Assembly: GCA_943357285.1 (NCBI GenBank)
Contig: CALRGJ010000011.1
Location: 1-36,306, forward strand
Origin: Candidatus Peribacteria bacterium
Lineage (GTDB): Bacteria > Patescibacteriota > Gracilibacteria > UBA1369 > LOWO2-01-FULL-3
Direction: 5' to 3'
Length of the DNA: 36,306 nt
A model generated the notes under the pieces. The model was not told where the DNA came from and did not search any database. It saw nothing but the letters and a program-made list of their open reading frames with translations. The translations under genes and the position numbers were made by a program. Of the stretch, positions 3,096 to 14,137 are shown in pieces (position 1 is the first letter of the stretch; the number at the start of each line of letters is the position of its first letter).

Positions 3096-3124
3096 ATTAT
3101 AGGGAAATGTTTGCATTTTGACAA
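3096..3124 (-). promoter_or_regulatory. Promoter for the BI-1/yceD/rpmF cluster
   Basis: On the minus strand TTGTCA (3119-3124) is followed after 17 bp by a perfect TATAAT (3096-3101), about 37 nt before the BI-1 start codon. It lies in the divergent gap with alr and overlaps the region where the alr transcript must start. Confidence 0.7.
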
Positions 3125-3146
3125 CATGCTGGCTAAGCTTTGCCAC

Positions 3147-4283
3147 ATGAATAATTTGAGCCGTGGCCTTAATTGGGTAGAGATTTCTAAAGAGGCATTA
3201 AGCAATAATGTGAAGCAGTTTAGACGGATTATTGGCGAGAATGTTTTGTTGTGTCCTTGTGTAAAAGCCAATGCTTATGGACACGGACTATTGGAATGCT
3301 CAAAAACTTTTATTGAGGCTGGAGCAAATTGGTTGGCGGTGAATTCTTTGTATGAAGCTGAAGCTTTAAGAGCTGGTGGCGTCGTAGCTCCAATTTATAT
3401 TTTGGGATATGTGGAAATGAGCGAATTGGTAAGAGCAGTGGAATTGGAATGTAGACTTGTGGCTTATAATAGAGAAATGATTGAAGCCTTGGGTGCAATT
3501 GGTAAGCCGGCGAAAATTCATATAAAAGTGGAGACTGGAAATAATAGACAGGGCGTTTTCGTGAAGGATCTAATTGAATTCGTAGAGTTCGTAAAAAGTT
3601 TCGGAAATATAGAAATAGAAGGACTGACTACTCATTTTGCGAATGTGGAGGATACGACAGATCATTCATATGCTGAGTTACAGTTGGCGAAATTTAACGA
3701 AGGAATTAAAAAGTTAGAAAGTATAGGTGTAGATGTGCCAATCAAGCATTGTGCTAATTCTGCCGCAGCAATTTTGTTTCCAAAAACTCATTTCCAATTG
3801 GTTAGAGTGGGAATTGCCAGCTATGGAATGTGGCCTTCAAATGAGACTTATTTATCATATTTAAAAGAAGTTGGTGATGGATTTAAACTGATGCCAGCGC
3901 TTACATGGAAGACAAAAATTGCGCAAATAAAAACTATTCCGGCTGGTGAATATATTGGCTATGGATGCACTTATAAGACTGGACATGAAACTAAGCTGGC
4001 AATTTTGCCTGTAGGATATTATGACGGCTACGATAGAGGCATAAACGGCGGACATGTTTTGATTTGCGGCAAACGTGCTCCAGTGAGAGGCAGAGTTTGT
4101 ATGAATATTATTATGGTGGAAGTGACAGATATTCCTGAGGCAAAACTAGAAGATGAAGTAATATTAATTGGCTGCAGCGGCGACGAAGAAATAAGTGCCG
4201 AACAATTTGGTAAATGGGCGGGCACAATTAATTACGAAGTGACGACTAGAATAAACGAAAGGGTACCGAGGATTTTTGTTTAA
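3147..4283 (+). CDS. alr: Alanine racemase
   Basis: PLP-dependent racemase that makes D-Ala for peptidoglycan. With the ATG at 3147 it has 378 residues. Visible hallmarks: LNWVEISKEALSNNV at the N-terminus, CVKANAYGHG carrying the PLP lysine near residue 37, HCANSAAAI and RVGIASYGMWPS in the middle, GYGCTYKT with the catalytic tyrosine, and RVCMNIIMVEVTD. The C-terminal beta domain is complete. An upstream TTG at 3111 preceded by AGGG is in frame and would add 12 residues; homology favours 3147, but no ribosome binding site decides it. The last 4 nt overlap the convergent tandem ligase gene. Together these two genes supply the D-Ala-D-Ala dipeptide. Confidence 0.93.
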   Translation: MNNLSRGLNWVEISKEALSNNVKQFRRIIGENVLLCPCVKANAYGHGLLECSKTFIEAGANWLAVNSLYEAEALRAGGVVAPIYILGYVEMSELVRAVELECRLVAYNREMIEALGAIGKPAKIHIKVETGNNRQGVFVKDLIEFVEFVKSFGNIEIEGLTTHFANVEDTTDHSYAELQLAKFNEGIKKLESIGVDVPIKHCANSAAAILFPKTHFQLVRVGIASYGMWPSNETYLSYLKEVGDGFKLMPALTWKTKIAQIKTIPAGEYIGYGCTYKTGHETKLAILPVGYYDGYDRGINGGHVLICGKRAPVRGRVCMNIIMVEVTDIPEAKLEDEVILIGCSGDEEISAEQFGKWAGTINYEVTTRINERVPRIFV

Positions 4284-6676
4284 GAATTTTCAATAATTTT
4301 TTCCAAAAATTCTACCGGATACATTTTAGGATTTTCGCTGAGCGCCTGGTGAAAAATTACGGTGGAAGGAGTTAGGGCTGGAGTGGAATTTGCCTCGATA
4401 ATCATTAGCTCTCCTGAATTCACATCCATAAAGGCATCGATACGAGCGTAGCCGGAAATGCCAAGTTTTTTTGCGACAATTTCCATAAGACGACGAGAAT
4501 TTTCAATGGCTTTCAATTTCACATAGGGTTGCGGTGGTGGAGTAATATTAACTCCAGTTCCACCTTGGAATTTCTCCTCGAGAGTGAGGACGGTGCCACG
4601 AGCCACCGTAAGACTTGGATTCATTGCTTTAATCTTCTCCCCTTTCCCATAAACTCCCATAGTAATTTCTATTTGCCCGGAAATTCTCTGCCACTTCAAT
4701 TTATTTTTAATCACTGAAACTTTATCGGTGTGAATAAATTGTTCAAACATTAAATTCTTAGGTCTATTAATTGGCATTTCCATCATGTCATGCTGACGAG
4801 GACCAAAAGTAAATTTAGGAACGCTGGTAATACCTTTGTGAATTAGATCCATATAAATAATAAGATCCTGAGCCTTGGTCAATTTCACAATTCCGGTAGA
4901 ACATCCATCCTCAGGAGGCTTCACAATTATGGAATTATTTCCCAATTGATCTTTCAAATGTTTCCAGAATTTTACCAGTTCAGAATTTTTTAATTTAAGA
5001 AGTTTTTCCGTACTTACTAACTCTTTTTTGGGAATATGAATCCCCTCTTTTTCTAAACCTTCAAGAATTTTTCCGCTTGCATATTTGTCCATGCAGAGAC
5101 GAGAGGCAGCGGAGCTGGAACCATTAAAAAGAACATGACACTGTTCCAGCATTCTTTGAAGTTCGCCGTTTTCTCCAATACCTCCATGCAGGCCAATAAA
5201 GATATATTCTTGAGCGCTTCGCGCTCTGTTTATAAAATCATTGAGAGTCATTTTTTCTGGCACAAAAAGTTCTTCATTTAAATGTCCCGGAAGAGCAGCA
5301 ATTTTTTCCAAAACGCGACGGCGCAAAGGCTGAAGTGTCTTTTCAGAATCCTGAGCAGCGCGACAACTTTCGGAAATTTCCTCAACAGTGTGATTGAGAG
5401 TTTTCGAGTAAGGTAAGCGCCAAACCGTTCTATCATCAAGGTCGAGTAAATATGGATGAGGCTGATATTTTTTTGATTTGCGAAGCTTGAGCCAAGCGTT
5501 GGTACCACTCATGACAGAGACTTGACGCTCAGAAGTTTTTCCTCCAAAAATTACATTTATAGGTTTCTTATTTGCCTGTAGATTTTTATGAATTTCCGGA
5601 AATTTTATGCCGTATCTTTGACAAGCATTGCGAACAATAAAATGCAGCAAATCACTATGACTAAATCCTACTTGAGATGATTGAAGAAAAAGAAAACTAT
5701 TCTGTTCCATACCGCTAATCGGATTGAAATCAGAAAACCAAAGATTCCCATCTTTCATTAACCAGCCATCAAAACGGGCAAAGTCTTTCATGCCGAGAGT
5801 TTTGAAAAGTTGTTCGGCTTGAATTTGAATTTTTTCAATAATTTCCGAAGAAAAACGTGGAGGACAATGATAAGTCACTTGTCTAGTCGCGAGATATTTT
5901 TTGCGGAAATCAAAAATTTGATTTTTCGAATAGTCGGTTTCGATCTCAGTCGGAAAAAGGGCCACTGGAAGACCAAAACGATTTTGTAAAATAATTACGG
6001 TGAACTCTGTTCCGGTACAAAATGGCTCAACTACAACTCTTGTATCAATGCGTTTTTTGAAAATAGTTTTTGTTGCTTCTACTGCCTCCTCTACCGTATT
6101 CACGGAATAGACACCAATGCTTGAGCCACCTGTTGCCGGCTTTACAATGGCGCGAGTTATCTGATGTGCAGCAAAAAAATCTTGAATATTTTTTTTGAAA
6201 GTTTTTGGTTCGTGAATTTTTAAGACTGTCGAAGGCAAAGTGTAAAAGCCTTGTTCTTTGATGAATTCGTTAGAACGATATTTATCGAAACAATTGCGAC
6301 AAGCAGGACGATCAGAGCCGATATAAGGAATTTTGTATTTTTCCAAAATGCTTTGAATTTGACCATCTTCACCGAAAGATCCATGAATCACAGGAAAAAC
6401 TATGTCTGTAGATTTAAGAAGCTTAATAAGCGAAGCTCTACTTAAAGGTTTGGAAGTTTGATTCAACTTAAAATCAAAATCCGAAGGAGTATTAGAATAG
6501 AGCTGATCTCTGGAAATGGCATATGGACGCTTAAAGTGGTCGAAGTACACCGGAACCACTTCGATGTCATCAGAATAGAGATGGTCACAAACTGAGCGCG
6601 CGGAATTCAAGGAAATACCTCTCTCTAAAGATGGTCCTCCACATAAAACTGCGATTTTGAATTTATTTTCTTCCAT
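4280..6676 (-). CDS. ddl: Tandem D-alanine-D-alanine ligase fusion
   Basis: A single 798-residue frame holding two complete Ddl/ATP-grasp units, more than twice the usual 300-360 residues. Unit 1 (about 7-360): GGPSLERGISL (13-23), HGSFGEDGQIQ (98-108), KPATGGSSIGV (179-189), ARFDGW (300-305) and SDFNPISGM (315-323), where the usual metal-binding Glu of the EXN motif is Asp. Unit 2 (about 372-798): FGGKTSERQVSVMSG (377-391), LHGGIGENGELQ (496-507), KPPEDGCSTGI (586-596), GYARID (742-747) and IIEANSTPAL (759-768), with the EXN motif intact but the family's SPGMT altered to STPALT. Unit 2 has insertions around 425-480 and 610-700. Ligation of D-Ala to D-Ala is the expected reaction; which unit does it is unclear. 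It converges on alr. Confidence 0.88.
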   Translation of the reverse strand: MEENKFKIAVLCGGPSLERGISLNSARSVCDHLYSDDIEVVPVYFDHFKRPYAISRDQLYSNTPSDFDFKLNQTSKPLSRASLIKLLKSTDIVFPVIHGSFGEDGQIQSILEKYKIPYIGSDRPACRNCFDKYRSNEFIKEQGFYTLPSTVLKIHEPKTFKKNIQDFFAAHQITRAIVKPATGGSSIGVYSVNTVEEAVEATKTIFKKRIDTRVVVEPFCTGTEFTVIILQNRFGLPVALFPTEIETDYSKNQIFDFRKKYLATRQVTYHCPPRFSSEIIEKIQIQAEQLFKTLGMKDFARFDGWLMKDGNLWFSDFNPISGMEQNSFLFLQSSQVGFSHSDLLHFIVRNACQRYGIKFPEIHKNLQANKKPINVIFGGKTSERQVSVMSGTNAWLKLRKSKKYQPHPYLLDLDDRTVWRLPYSKTLNHTVEEISESCRAAQDSEKTLQPLRRRVLEKIAALPGHLNEELFVPEKMTLNDFINRARSAQEYIFIGLHGGIGENGELQRMLEQCHVLFNGSSSAASRLCMDKYASGKILEGLEKEGIHIPKKELVSTEKLLKLKNSELVKFWKHLKDQLGNNSIIVKPPEDGCSTGIVKLTKAQDLIIYMDLIHKGITSVPKFTFGPRQHDMMEMPINRPKNLMFEQFIHTDKVSVIKNKLKWQRISGQIEITMGVYGKGEKIKAMNPSLTVARGTVLTLEEKFQGGTGVNITPPPQPYVKLKAIENSRRLMEIVAKKLGISGYARIDAFMDVNSGELMIIEANSTPALTPSTVIFHQALSENPKMYPVEFLEKIIENS

Positions 6677-6687
6677 TTGTGTTAAAA

Positions 6688-6715
6688 AGTATAGCAGTGA
6701 TTTGCCCTAAAACAA
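6688..6715 (-). promoter_or_regulatory. Promoter of the tandem Ddl gene
   Basis: Minus strand TTGTTT (6710-6715), 16 bp, then TATACT (6688-6693) preceded by TGC, making an extended -10. Only 11 nt separate the -10 from the ATG, giving a predicted leader of about 5 nt and no room for a Shine-Dalgarno site. Confidence 0.6.
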
Positions 6716-13244: not shown

Positions 13245-14111
13245 CTATAATCCCAAAGACTTTCTGATAGCGTCAGCCTTGCTAGTATCTTCAGTTTTCT
13301 TTTGAGTCTGGCTCCACTCGTGTTCGAGTTCCATCCATTCGTCAAAATGTTGCTGAACAAGCTTATCTAGCTGAGGTACATGCTTCTTTGAAAGAGCGGC
13401 AAATTTCTGTTTCTCTTCTTCGAAAATGCGAACTAGCTCATCGATCTGAGCTTGTTTTAGTTTTGGAATTGATTCAATAATCTTTTTCTTCTCATCTTTA
13501 GAAAGAGAAATAGAACCAGCTAATAATCTAATAAAATATTCATCGTCAAACTTCAAATCACTCTTTGGCGCAGTCACATTTAATTTCGCTGGAAACTTAG
13601 TTCCCAATTGAAAATTTGCCGGAGCAGTATCTTCAGCTGGTGGCATTGGTGGATAGCCAGGCATTTGACCAGGCATAGCACCTTGAGGTGGCATTCCTGC
13701 ACCCATTGGCATTTGGCCTTGTGGTGGGAAACCAGGCATTCCTTGCGGAGCTGGATAGCCTGGAGGATACGCACCTGGTTGTGGGTAACCTTGTGGAGGC
13801 ATTCCCTGAGGTGGCATTTGGCCTTGTGGTGGATAATAATAACCCATTGGAGGGTAACCTTGTTGTTGAGCGTATGGATCAAACATTGGTGGATATCCTG
13901 GAGGGTAGGCACCTGGTTGAGGATAGCCCTGTGGGGGCATTCCTTGAGGTGGCATCGGAGGATAACCAGTTGGGGGCATTTGCTGTCCCTGAGCTCCTTG
14001 AACACCCTGAGCACCAGCTTGTGCGGGTGGAGGTGTCATTGGTTTTGGAGGTTGTACTTGAGCTGGTTTTTGACCCTGATTTGCGGCCGGATTGGTATTT
14101 TTTTGATCCAT
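13245..14111 (-). CDS. Pro/Gly/Gln/Met-rich protein with C-terminal helical domain
   Basis: A 288-residue protein in two parts. Residues 1-160 are low complexity (PPQG, GYPP and MPPQG units), with one 22-residue block occurring identically at 53-74 and 99-120; this half is probably disordered. Residues about 165-288 form a charged helical domain (DEYFIRLLAGSISLSKDEKK, IPKLKQAQIDELVRIFEEEK, then KKHVPQLDKLVQQHFDEWM). The same pattern appears in the protein at 25847-26368, so the two share a domain. There is no signal peptide or membrane segment; it is presumably cytosolic. Function unknown; a scaffold or condensate-forming protein is speculation. The promoter lies just upstream. Long antisense frames across the repeat region are shadows of its periodic composition. 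Confidence 0.75.
   Translation of the reverse strand: MDQKNTNPAANQGQKPAQVQPPKPMTPPPAQAGAQGVQGAQGQQMPPTGYPPMPPQGMPPQGYPQPGAYPPGYPPMFDPYAQQQGYPPMGYYYPPQGQMPPQGMPPQGYPQPGAYPPGYPAPQGMPGFPPQGQMPMGAGMPPQGAMPGQMPGYPPMPPAEDTAPANFQLGTKFPAKLNVTAPKSDLKFDDEYFIRLLAGSISLSKDEKKKIIESIPKLKQAQIDELVRIFEEEKQKFAALSKKHVPQLDKLVQQHFDEWMELEHEWSQTQKKTEDTSKADAIRKSLGL
13752..13955 (-). repeat. Two copies of a 22-codon repeat in the Pro-rich gene
   Basis: The peptide starting MPPQGMPPQGYPQPG and ending YPPGYP is encoded at 13890-13955 and again at 13752-13817, 46 codons apart, identical in protein but with some silent differences in the DNA. It suggests internal duplication followed by some drift. Confidence 0.75.
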
Positions 14112-14137
14112 ATGTTTTTATAGGCGTTAACTCTTAT

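Follow-up and report, generated by a model that had tools for sequence, protein, structure and literature searches.

We examined a 36,306-nucleotide contig of Candidatus Peribacteria (referred to below as the window; contig 11 of a 1.21-Mb genome that is 99% complete) and found that it encodes a 798-residue protein made of two D-alanine-D-alanine ligase (Ddl) units. Profile and model comparisons indicate that each half is a complete Ddl-family unit, in which both the N and C domains of Ddl are recognized and the Ddl fold is predicted, and the two halves carry different active-site signatures. We propose that the protein is a covalent pseudo-heterodimer that carries the cell's D-Ala-D-Ala ligase function and has two ATP-using sites, with unit 2 of altered specificity, a proposal that we judge about equally likely to be right or wrong. 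The gene and its two units lie as follows.

4280..6676 (stop codon included), minus strand: double Ddl gene, 798 amino acids, ATG at 6676 and stop at 4280-4282
5588..6676, minus strand: unit 1, residues 1-363, from Pfam, alignment and structure
4283..5587, minus strand: unit 2, residues 364-798, from Pfam, alignment and structure

A sequence-only reading of this DNA had described two Ddl units head to tail in one frame, and Pfam matches in each half, together with homologous doubles, bear this out. Unit 1 scored 93.6 bits against Dala_Dala_lig_N (PF01820) and 104.8 bits against Dala_Dala_lig_C (PF07478); the corresponding scores of unit 2 were 61.7 and 37.9 bits, and all four exceed the cut-offs. 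Alone, both halves fall under the TIGR01205 cut-off of 245.65 (222.3 for unit 1 and 110.8 for unit 2). The whole protein scores 327.7 and passes only through the summing of both halves, which is why automatic families name it a D-alanine--D-alanine ligase.

The AlphaFold model of the whole protein had a mean predicted local distance difference test (pLDDT) score of 87.7 and a predicted template modeling (pTM) score of 0.87; unit 2 modeled alone gave values of 87.4 and 0.85. Structure modeling, a check suggested in the earlier reading, predicted the Ddl fold in both halves. Unit 1 matched the Leuconostoc D-Ala-D-Lac ligase 1ehi with a Z score of 38.3 (342 residues aligned, root mean square deviation 2.6 Å, VIA-align) and DdlA 3i12 with a Z score of 37.8, while unit 2 alone matched DdlA 3i12 with a Z score of 35.0 (323 residues aligned, 2.5 Å, VIA-align). 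All 50 entries listed in the structure search with unit 2 were Ddl or Van ligases, its profile matched only Ddl/Van chains in the PDB, and the only matches from a viral fold library were distant ATP-grasp ones. The possibility that unit 2 belongs to a different ATP-grasp family, raised previously as the case that would overturn the description, is rejected by these PDB profile matches and by the fold, and the Pfam scores point the same way.

Active-site residues were compared in an alignment of 25 homologues, to which the site counts given here refer, using DdlB numbering. E15, K97, K144, E187, K215, R255, D257 and N272 are kept without exception in both halves. Unit 1 keeps the substrate cluster of Glu15, Ser150 and Tyr216 (25/25 each) and also S281; in the numbering of the protein itself it has E18, S185, a Y-type loop at K260-Y261 and the metal residues D303 and N318. 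The Asp reported earlier in place of the Glu of its EXN metal-binding motif proved to be universal: the motif reads D316-F-N318, with Asp at the Glu270 column in 25/25. P275 is replaced by Ser and T278 by Glu in 23/25 each, and unit 1 reads SGMEQNS where SPGMT is expected.

In unit 2, S150 is replaced by Cys (C592), Y216 by Phe (F703) and S281 by Thr (T772), in 25/25 each. The previous claim that the halves depart from consensus differently was therefore correct, but it missed the clearest difference, Cys150/Phe216. Ser150 and Tyr216 are both retained in the canonical Ddls of this order (18/18). The PDB profile alignment places HKYQAG of Pseudomonas DdlA opposite EEKFQGG of unit 2, which supports the assignment of the Tyr/Phe column. 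The metal and phosphate residues R255, D257, E270 and N272 of unit 2 are present in 25/25; the protein has E383, K586, R745, D747, E761 and N763 there, and the Glu15 column is kept. E761-A-N763 is followed by STPALT, which had been singled out as a replacement of SPGMT. The motif is present, but it is only a mild departure, since most relatives read NTLP[AG]LT, with the Pro and the final Thr in 25/25 and Ala versus Gly in 13/12. Because unit 2 does not have the full Glu15/Ser150/Tyr216 cluster, it appears to be a divergent Ddl-family unit and not a standard D-Ala-D-Ala ligase. By this alignment, the change in its substrate pocket is fixed over the whole depth of the double family. The codons concerned are listed here.

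5729..5731, minus strand: D316, Asp at the DdlB Glu270 column of unit 1 (25/25 homologues)
4901..4903, minus strand: C592, Cys at the DdlB Ser150 column of unit 2 (25/25, and all rows of the separate b genes described below)
4568..4570, minus strand: F703, Phe at the DdlB Tyr216 column of unit 2, in an invariant EEKF (alignment and PDB profile)

Unit 2 also contains insertions, as stated before; we counted three, of roughly 18-36 residues each, and not two.

5252..5359, minus strand: insertion 1, approximate residues 440-475, an extra helix in the N domain (model secondary structure)
4757..4831, minus strand: insertion 2, approximate residues 616-640 (homologues and model)
4679..4732, minus strand: insertion 3, residues about 649-666, a beta hairpin (alignment and model)

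Both halves are under strong purifying selection. The ratio of nonsynonymous to synonymous substitution rates (dN/dS) between this genome (G000) and two others (G002 and G003) was 0.015-0.024 for unit 1 and 0.034-0.059 for unit 2, values that are rough, with dS near or past saturation. The distances of the two halves correlate (Mantel r of 0.89; 0/2000 permutations) and their subtrees are similar; the two halves share their history. A decaying second copy is rejected by the dN/dS values and the invariant sites. Strong selection on each half, combined with active-site signatures that are fixed but unlike, makes it probable that the two sites differ in function. Of the two functions offered in the sequence-only reading, a catalytic unit with a regulatory one or two specificities, the second is favored, since the ATP and metal residues are retained in each half (apart from the conservative E270D of unit 1) and dN/dS is ~0.02-0.06 in both; the first is disfavored on the same grounds.

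Doubles of ~770-840 residues with 41-95% identity were found in many independent genomes at full length, and an assembly chimera of two genes is thereby rejected. A profile of unit 2 detected doubles in 41/353 genomes of the class, a few of them truncated where a contig stops, and also outside the class, in four genomes (G394, G407, G542 and G596). Among named relatives, the nearest are Peregrinibacteria/Peribacteria metagenome-assembled genomes, whose double proteins are 94 and 90% identical to this one. Other genomes of the same family (f1) and order have a canonical single Ddl of ~360 residues. Among 89 genomes of the order, 28 have the double and 38 a canonical Ddl (>200 bits), with both in 2 genomes versus 12 expected in a count that ignores shared ancestry; the double and the canonical single Ddl nearly exclude each other in the order. 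Three of the doubles are irregular. The G069 gene (L113, G069:C86) has nine in-frame TGA codons within unit 2 and becomes an open 788-residue frame under table 25, with TGA as a sense codon. The G303 gene is split over two contig ends, and in G347:C60 (L100) units 1 and 2 are in overlapping frames, reflecting a frameshift, a split gene or an assembly error.

Three genomes from two other Patescibacteria classes (G417, G358 and G379; loci L098, L099 and L116/L118) carry separate Ddl genes, a followed by b on one strand. A peptide deformylase gene lies between a and b in G358 and G417, and in G358 an alanine racemase homologue is directly upstream of the pair and a signal peptidase downstream. 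The alignment includes four rows each for a and b, two of which are the same G379 gene. Gene b has Cys150, Phe216 and Thr281, as does unit 2. Gene a has Tyr216 and Ser150, as does unit 1; it differs in having His at the Asn272 column, where unit 1 has Asp at the Glu270 column, and it has Leu for His63. A 101-row tree recovers unit 1, unit 2, a and b each as a monophyletic group. The clade of b and unit 2 had support of 100/95 in this tree and 99/94 in a 52-row tree, and all four groups stand together apart from canonical Ddls (93/83 and 100/97 in two trees).

Since b groups with unit 2 and has its signature, the double is probably a fused ancient gene pair. The simplest history suggested by these sequences is an ancient duplication that gave rise to a pair, which was fused once in the ancestor of the doubles. 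Trees had been proposed as a check on whether the duplication was local; those built here do not favor local duplication inside the fused gene, given the clade that unit 2 forms with the separate b genes (99/94). Approximately unbiased (AU) tests gave p values of 0.197 for unit 1 and unit 2 as a clade and 0.436 for unit 1 and a as a clade, values that reject neither grouping. The adjacent Ddl-like genes of G297 and G299 (L147 and L148; same order) were rejected as precursors on their low scores to all four profiles. A frame of ~803 residues in G027 was likewise rejected as a double Ddl; it is a different fusion, of an L-amino-acid-ligase half and a Ddl-like half. This tandem ATP-grasp protein (L105:1136-3544, G027:C22; 803 residues) has an ATP-grasp_4 plus LAL_C2 half and a Ddl_C-like half, and other genomes of the class (G005, G023, G055 and G059) have frames of about this length that match Ddl_C.

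The double gene is convergent with an alanine racemase gene, whose 3' tail overlaps it by 4 bases.

3111..4283, plus strand: alr, alanine racemase (Ala_racemase_N and _C matches)

The order of alr and the double gene is as here in G002, and the two adjoin in G003. Neighbors of the double gene are common to G000, G002, G003, G009 and G010. G008, of the same family, has only a single ddl, which is flanked, as the double is here, by the FtsA-like gene and alr; the double thus occupies the site of a single ddl, an in-situ replacement. Matches to MurF-like and Mur-type ligases were found in 16/16 genomes tested. The other PF07478 matches in the genome are CarB and a GshAB-like protein, and the double is therefore its only recognizable Ddl. 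The GshAB-like protein (G000:C6, L106) of this small genome is a glutamate-cysteine ligase fused to an ATP-grasp domain.

The double is usually the sole Ddl and stands beside alr, so the dipeptide used by MurF must come from one half at least, and the complete Glu15/Ser150/Tyr216 cluster makes unit 1 the likely D-Ala-D-Ala half. We propose that the alanine racemase of the adjoining gene would supply D-Ala, and that unit 1, with its standard Tyr/Ser/Glu cluster, would phosphorylate D-Ala and add a second D-Ala to give the dipeptide for MurF. Unit 2 keeps the ATP, Mg and Arg255 residues, but its Cys/Phe/Thr pocket is fixed, and on these grounds we regard it as a probable second ligase site, which is more likely than a dead subunit; its acceptor would be unlike that of unit 1, either a hydroxy acid or another D-amino acid. 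Two Ddl-family subunits derived from the ancient a/b pair would thus be joined by a short linker. The two-half model and the separate a/b genes suggest that the fused chain probably folds like a Ddl dimer. Of the covalent pseudo-dimer proposed earlier, the fusion of unlike units stands, and the dimer-like arrangement is plausible only, from the model with a pTM of 0.87 and the tandem a/b genes.

Several observations weigh against a pseudo-heterodimer with two working sites. Model confidence is low for the omega loops of both units (pLDDT of <50 at residues 254-263 and ~699-706), the E270D change of unit 1 affects a metal ligand and might reduce catalysis at that site, and unit 2 evolves somewhat faster than unit 1. 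The closeness of dS to saturation and the shared ancestry behind the exclusivity count also blunt those two lines of evidence. The broader claim, that a Patescibacteria lineage has an obligate pair of unlike Ddl subunits, separate or fused, with a second product other than D-Ala-D-Ala, we advance only tentatively and think somewhat doubtful. If it is true, the cell wall would terminate in stem peptides of two kinds or of a single kind yet undescribed.

The strongest competing explanation, unlikely in our view but deserving of weight, is that catalysis belongs to one half alone, while the other, a pseudo-enzyme, serves only to complete the dimer interface or to regulate it. Both halves have losses that would suit it (E270D, P275S and T278E in unit 1; S150C and Y216F in unit 2), and the metal site of separate gene a is more clearly altered, by His at the Asn272 column and the replacement of His63 by Leu. 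However, the other ATP and metal residues are invariant in both halves, including K97, K144, E187, R255 and D257, and purifying selection on both is strong. Furthermore, Escherichia coli Y216F DdlB was crystallized with ADP and phosphoryl phosphinate (title of PDB 1iow), indicating that a change at Tyr216 need not kill the site.

That unit 2 is a D-Ala-D-Lac ligase, giving a mixed or glycopeptide-tolerant wall, seems improbable. D-Lactate is the obvious candidate acceptor from Phe216: in lactic acid bacteria, Phe or Tyr at the Tyr216 position decides between depsipeptide and dipeptide activity, and Phe marks the depsipeptide Ddls (PMC5996685). Unit 2 and b have this Phe without exception, as does the F-type depsipeptide Ddl of Leuconostoc, LmDdl2 (1ehi), a structure among the best matches of both halves. 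However, the known Phe cases are single-site enzymes, and unit 2 differs from LmDdl2 in also having Cys for Ser150, Thr for Ser281 and a GGTG loop and in being fused to a Tyr-type unit; a D-Lac supply was not found in its genome either. No VanX-type (Peptidase_M15) match was obtained in that genome, and matches to D-2-hydroxyacid dehydrogenase (2-Hacid_dh_C) were weak and partial, the best at 26.9 bits, compared with 201.7 bits for a full-length one in G027. These searches thus gave no support for the VanH and VanX that mark a VanA-type resistance cluster, and with no VanX match and no convincing dehydrogenase, D-Ala-D-Lac is no more than a possible second product. To our knowledge, neither the EEKFxGGTG loop context nor Cys150 has a counterpart among characterized enzymes, which also counts against D-Ala-D-Lac.

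We give a similarly low probability to the idea that both halves make D-Ala-D-Ala and that the fusion is a mere convenience of a small genome. The double replaces a single ddl at the same locus and usually stands alone, as this would have it, but the half-specific signatures are fixed at substrate-binding positions in 25/25 homologues. Least probable, and by our estimate very much so, is that the halves act in sequence, with unit 1 making the dipeptide and unit 2, whose inserts could enlarge its pocket, extending or modifying it; CarB, the large subunit of carbamoyl phosphate synthase, is the established precedent for tandem ATP-grasp halves, but MurF normally takes a dipeptide.

Ddl is an essential antibiotic target (of D-cycloserine) and a textbook homodimer. 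The double resembles DdlA and DdlB in fold, in its N and C domains, in ATP and Mg residues, in its alr neighborhood and in its presumed role before MurF; it differs in having two units per chain, halves under the TIGR01205 cut-off, half-specific site changes and the unit 2 inserts. The MurC-Ddl fusion (PRK14573, as in Chlamydia) likewise places a Ddl in a large chain, but the partner there is MurC and here another Ddl. CarB also has two homologous ATP-grasp halves with separate tasks, although it belongs to another ATP-grasp family and has another chemistry. In the open-license literature we found no paper that deals with Ddl in Patescibacteria or with a Ddl that is fused or paired, and the text of the Peribacteria genome paper does not mention Ddl. 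Automatic annotation as a D-alanine--D-alanine ligase or a Van-like resistance gene hides a distinct enzyme. A naturally fused, asymmetric Ddl with a separate-gene counterpart in related bacteria offers a direct way to ask about the role of the second active site. It also suggests, as a possibility open to testing, that stem peptides in these uncultured bacteria may have some ending other than simple D-Ala-D-Ala.

Two further features of the window were recorded. A TATACT hexamer (window 6680-6715) ends only ~12 bases before the ATG of the double gene, and a leaderless transcript of this gene is possible from the sequence. At window 13245-14123, long overlapping frames on both strands cover a Pro/Gln/Gly-rich repetitive stretch, of which only a 288-residue minus-strand frame looks protein-like.

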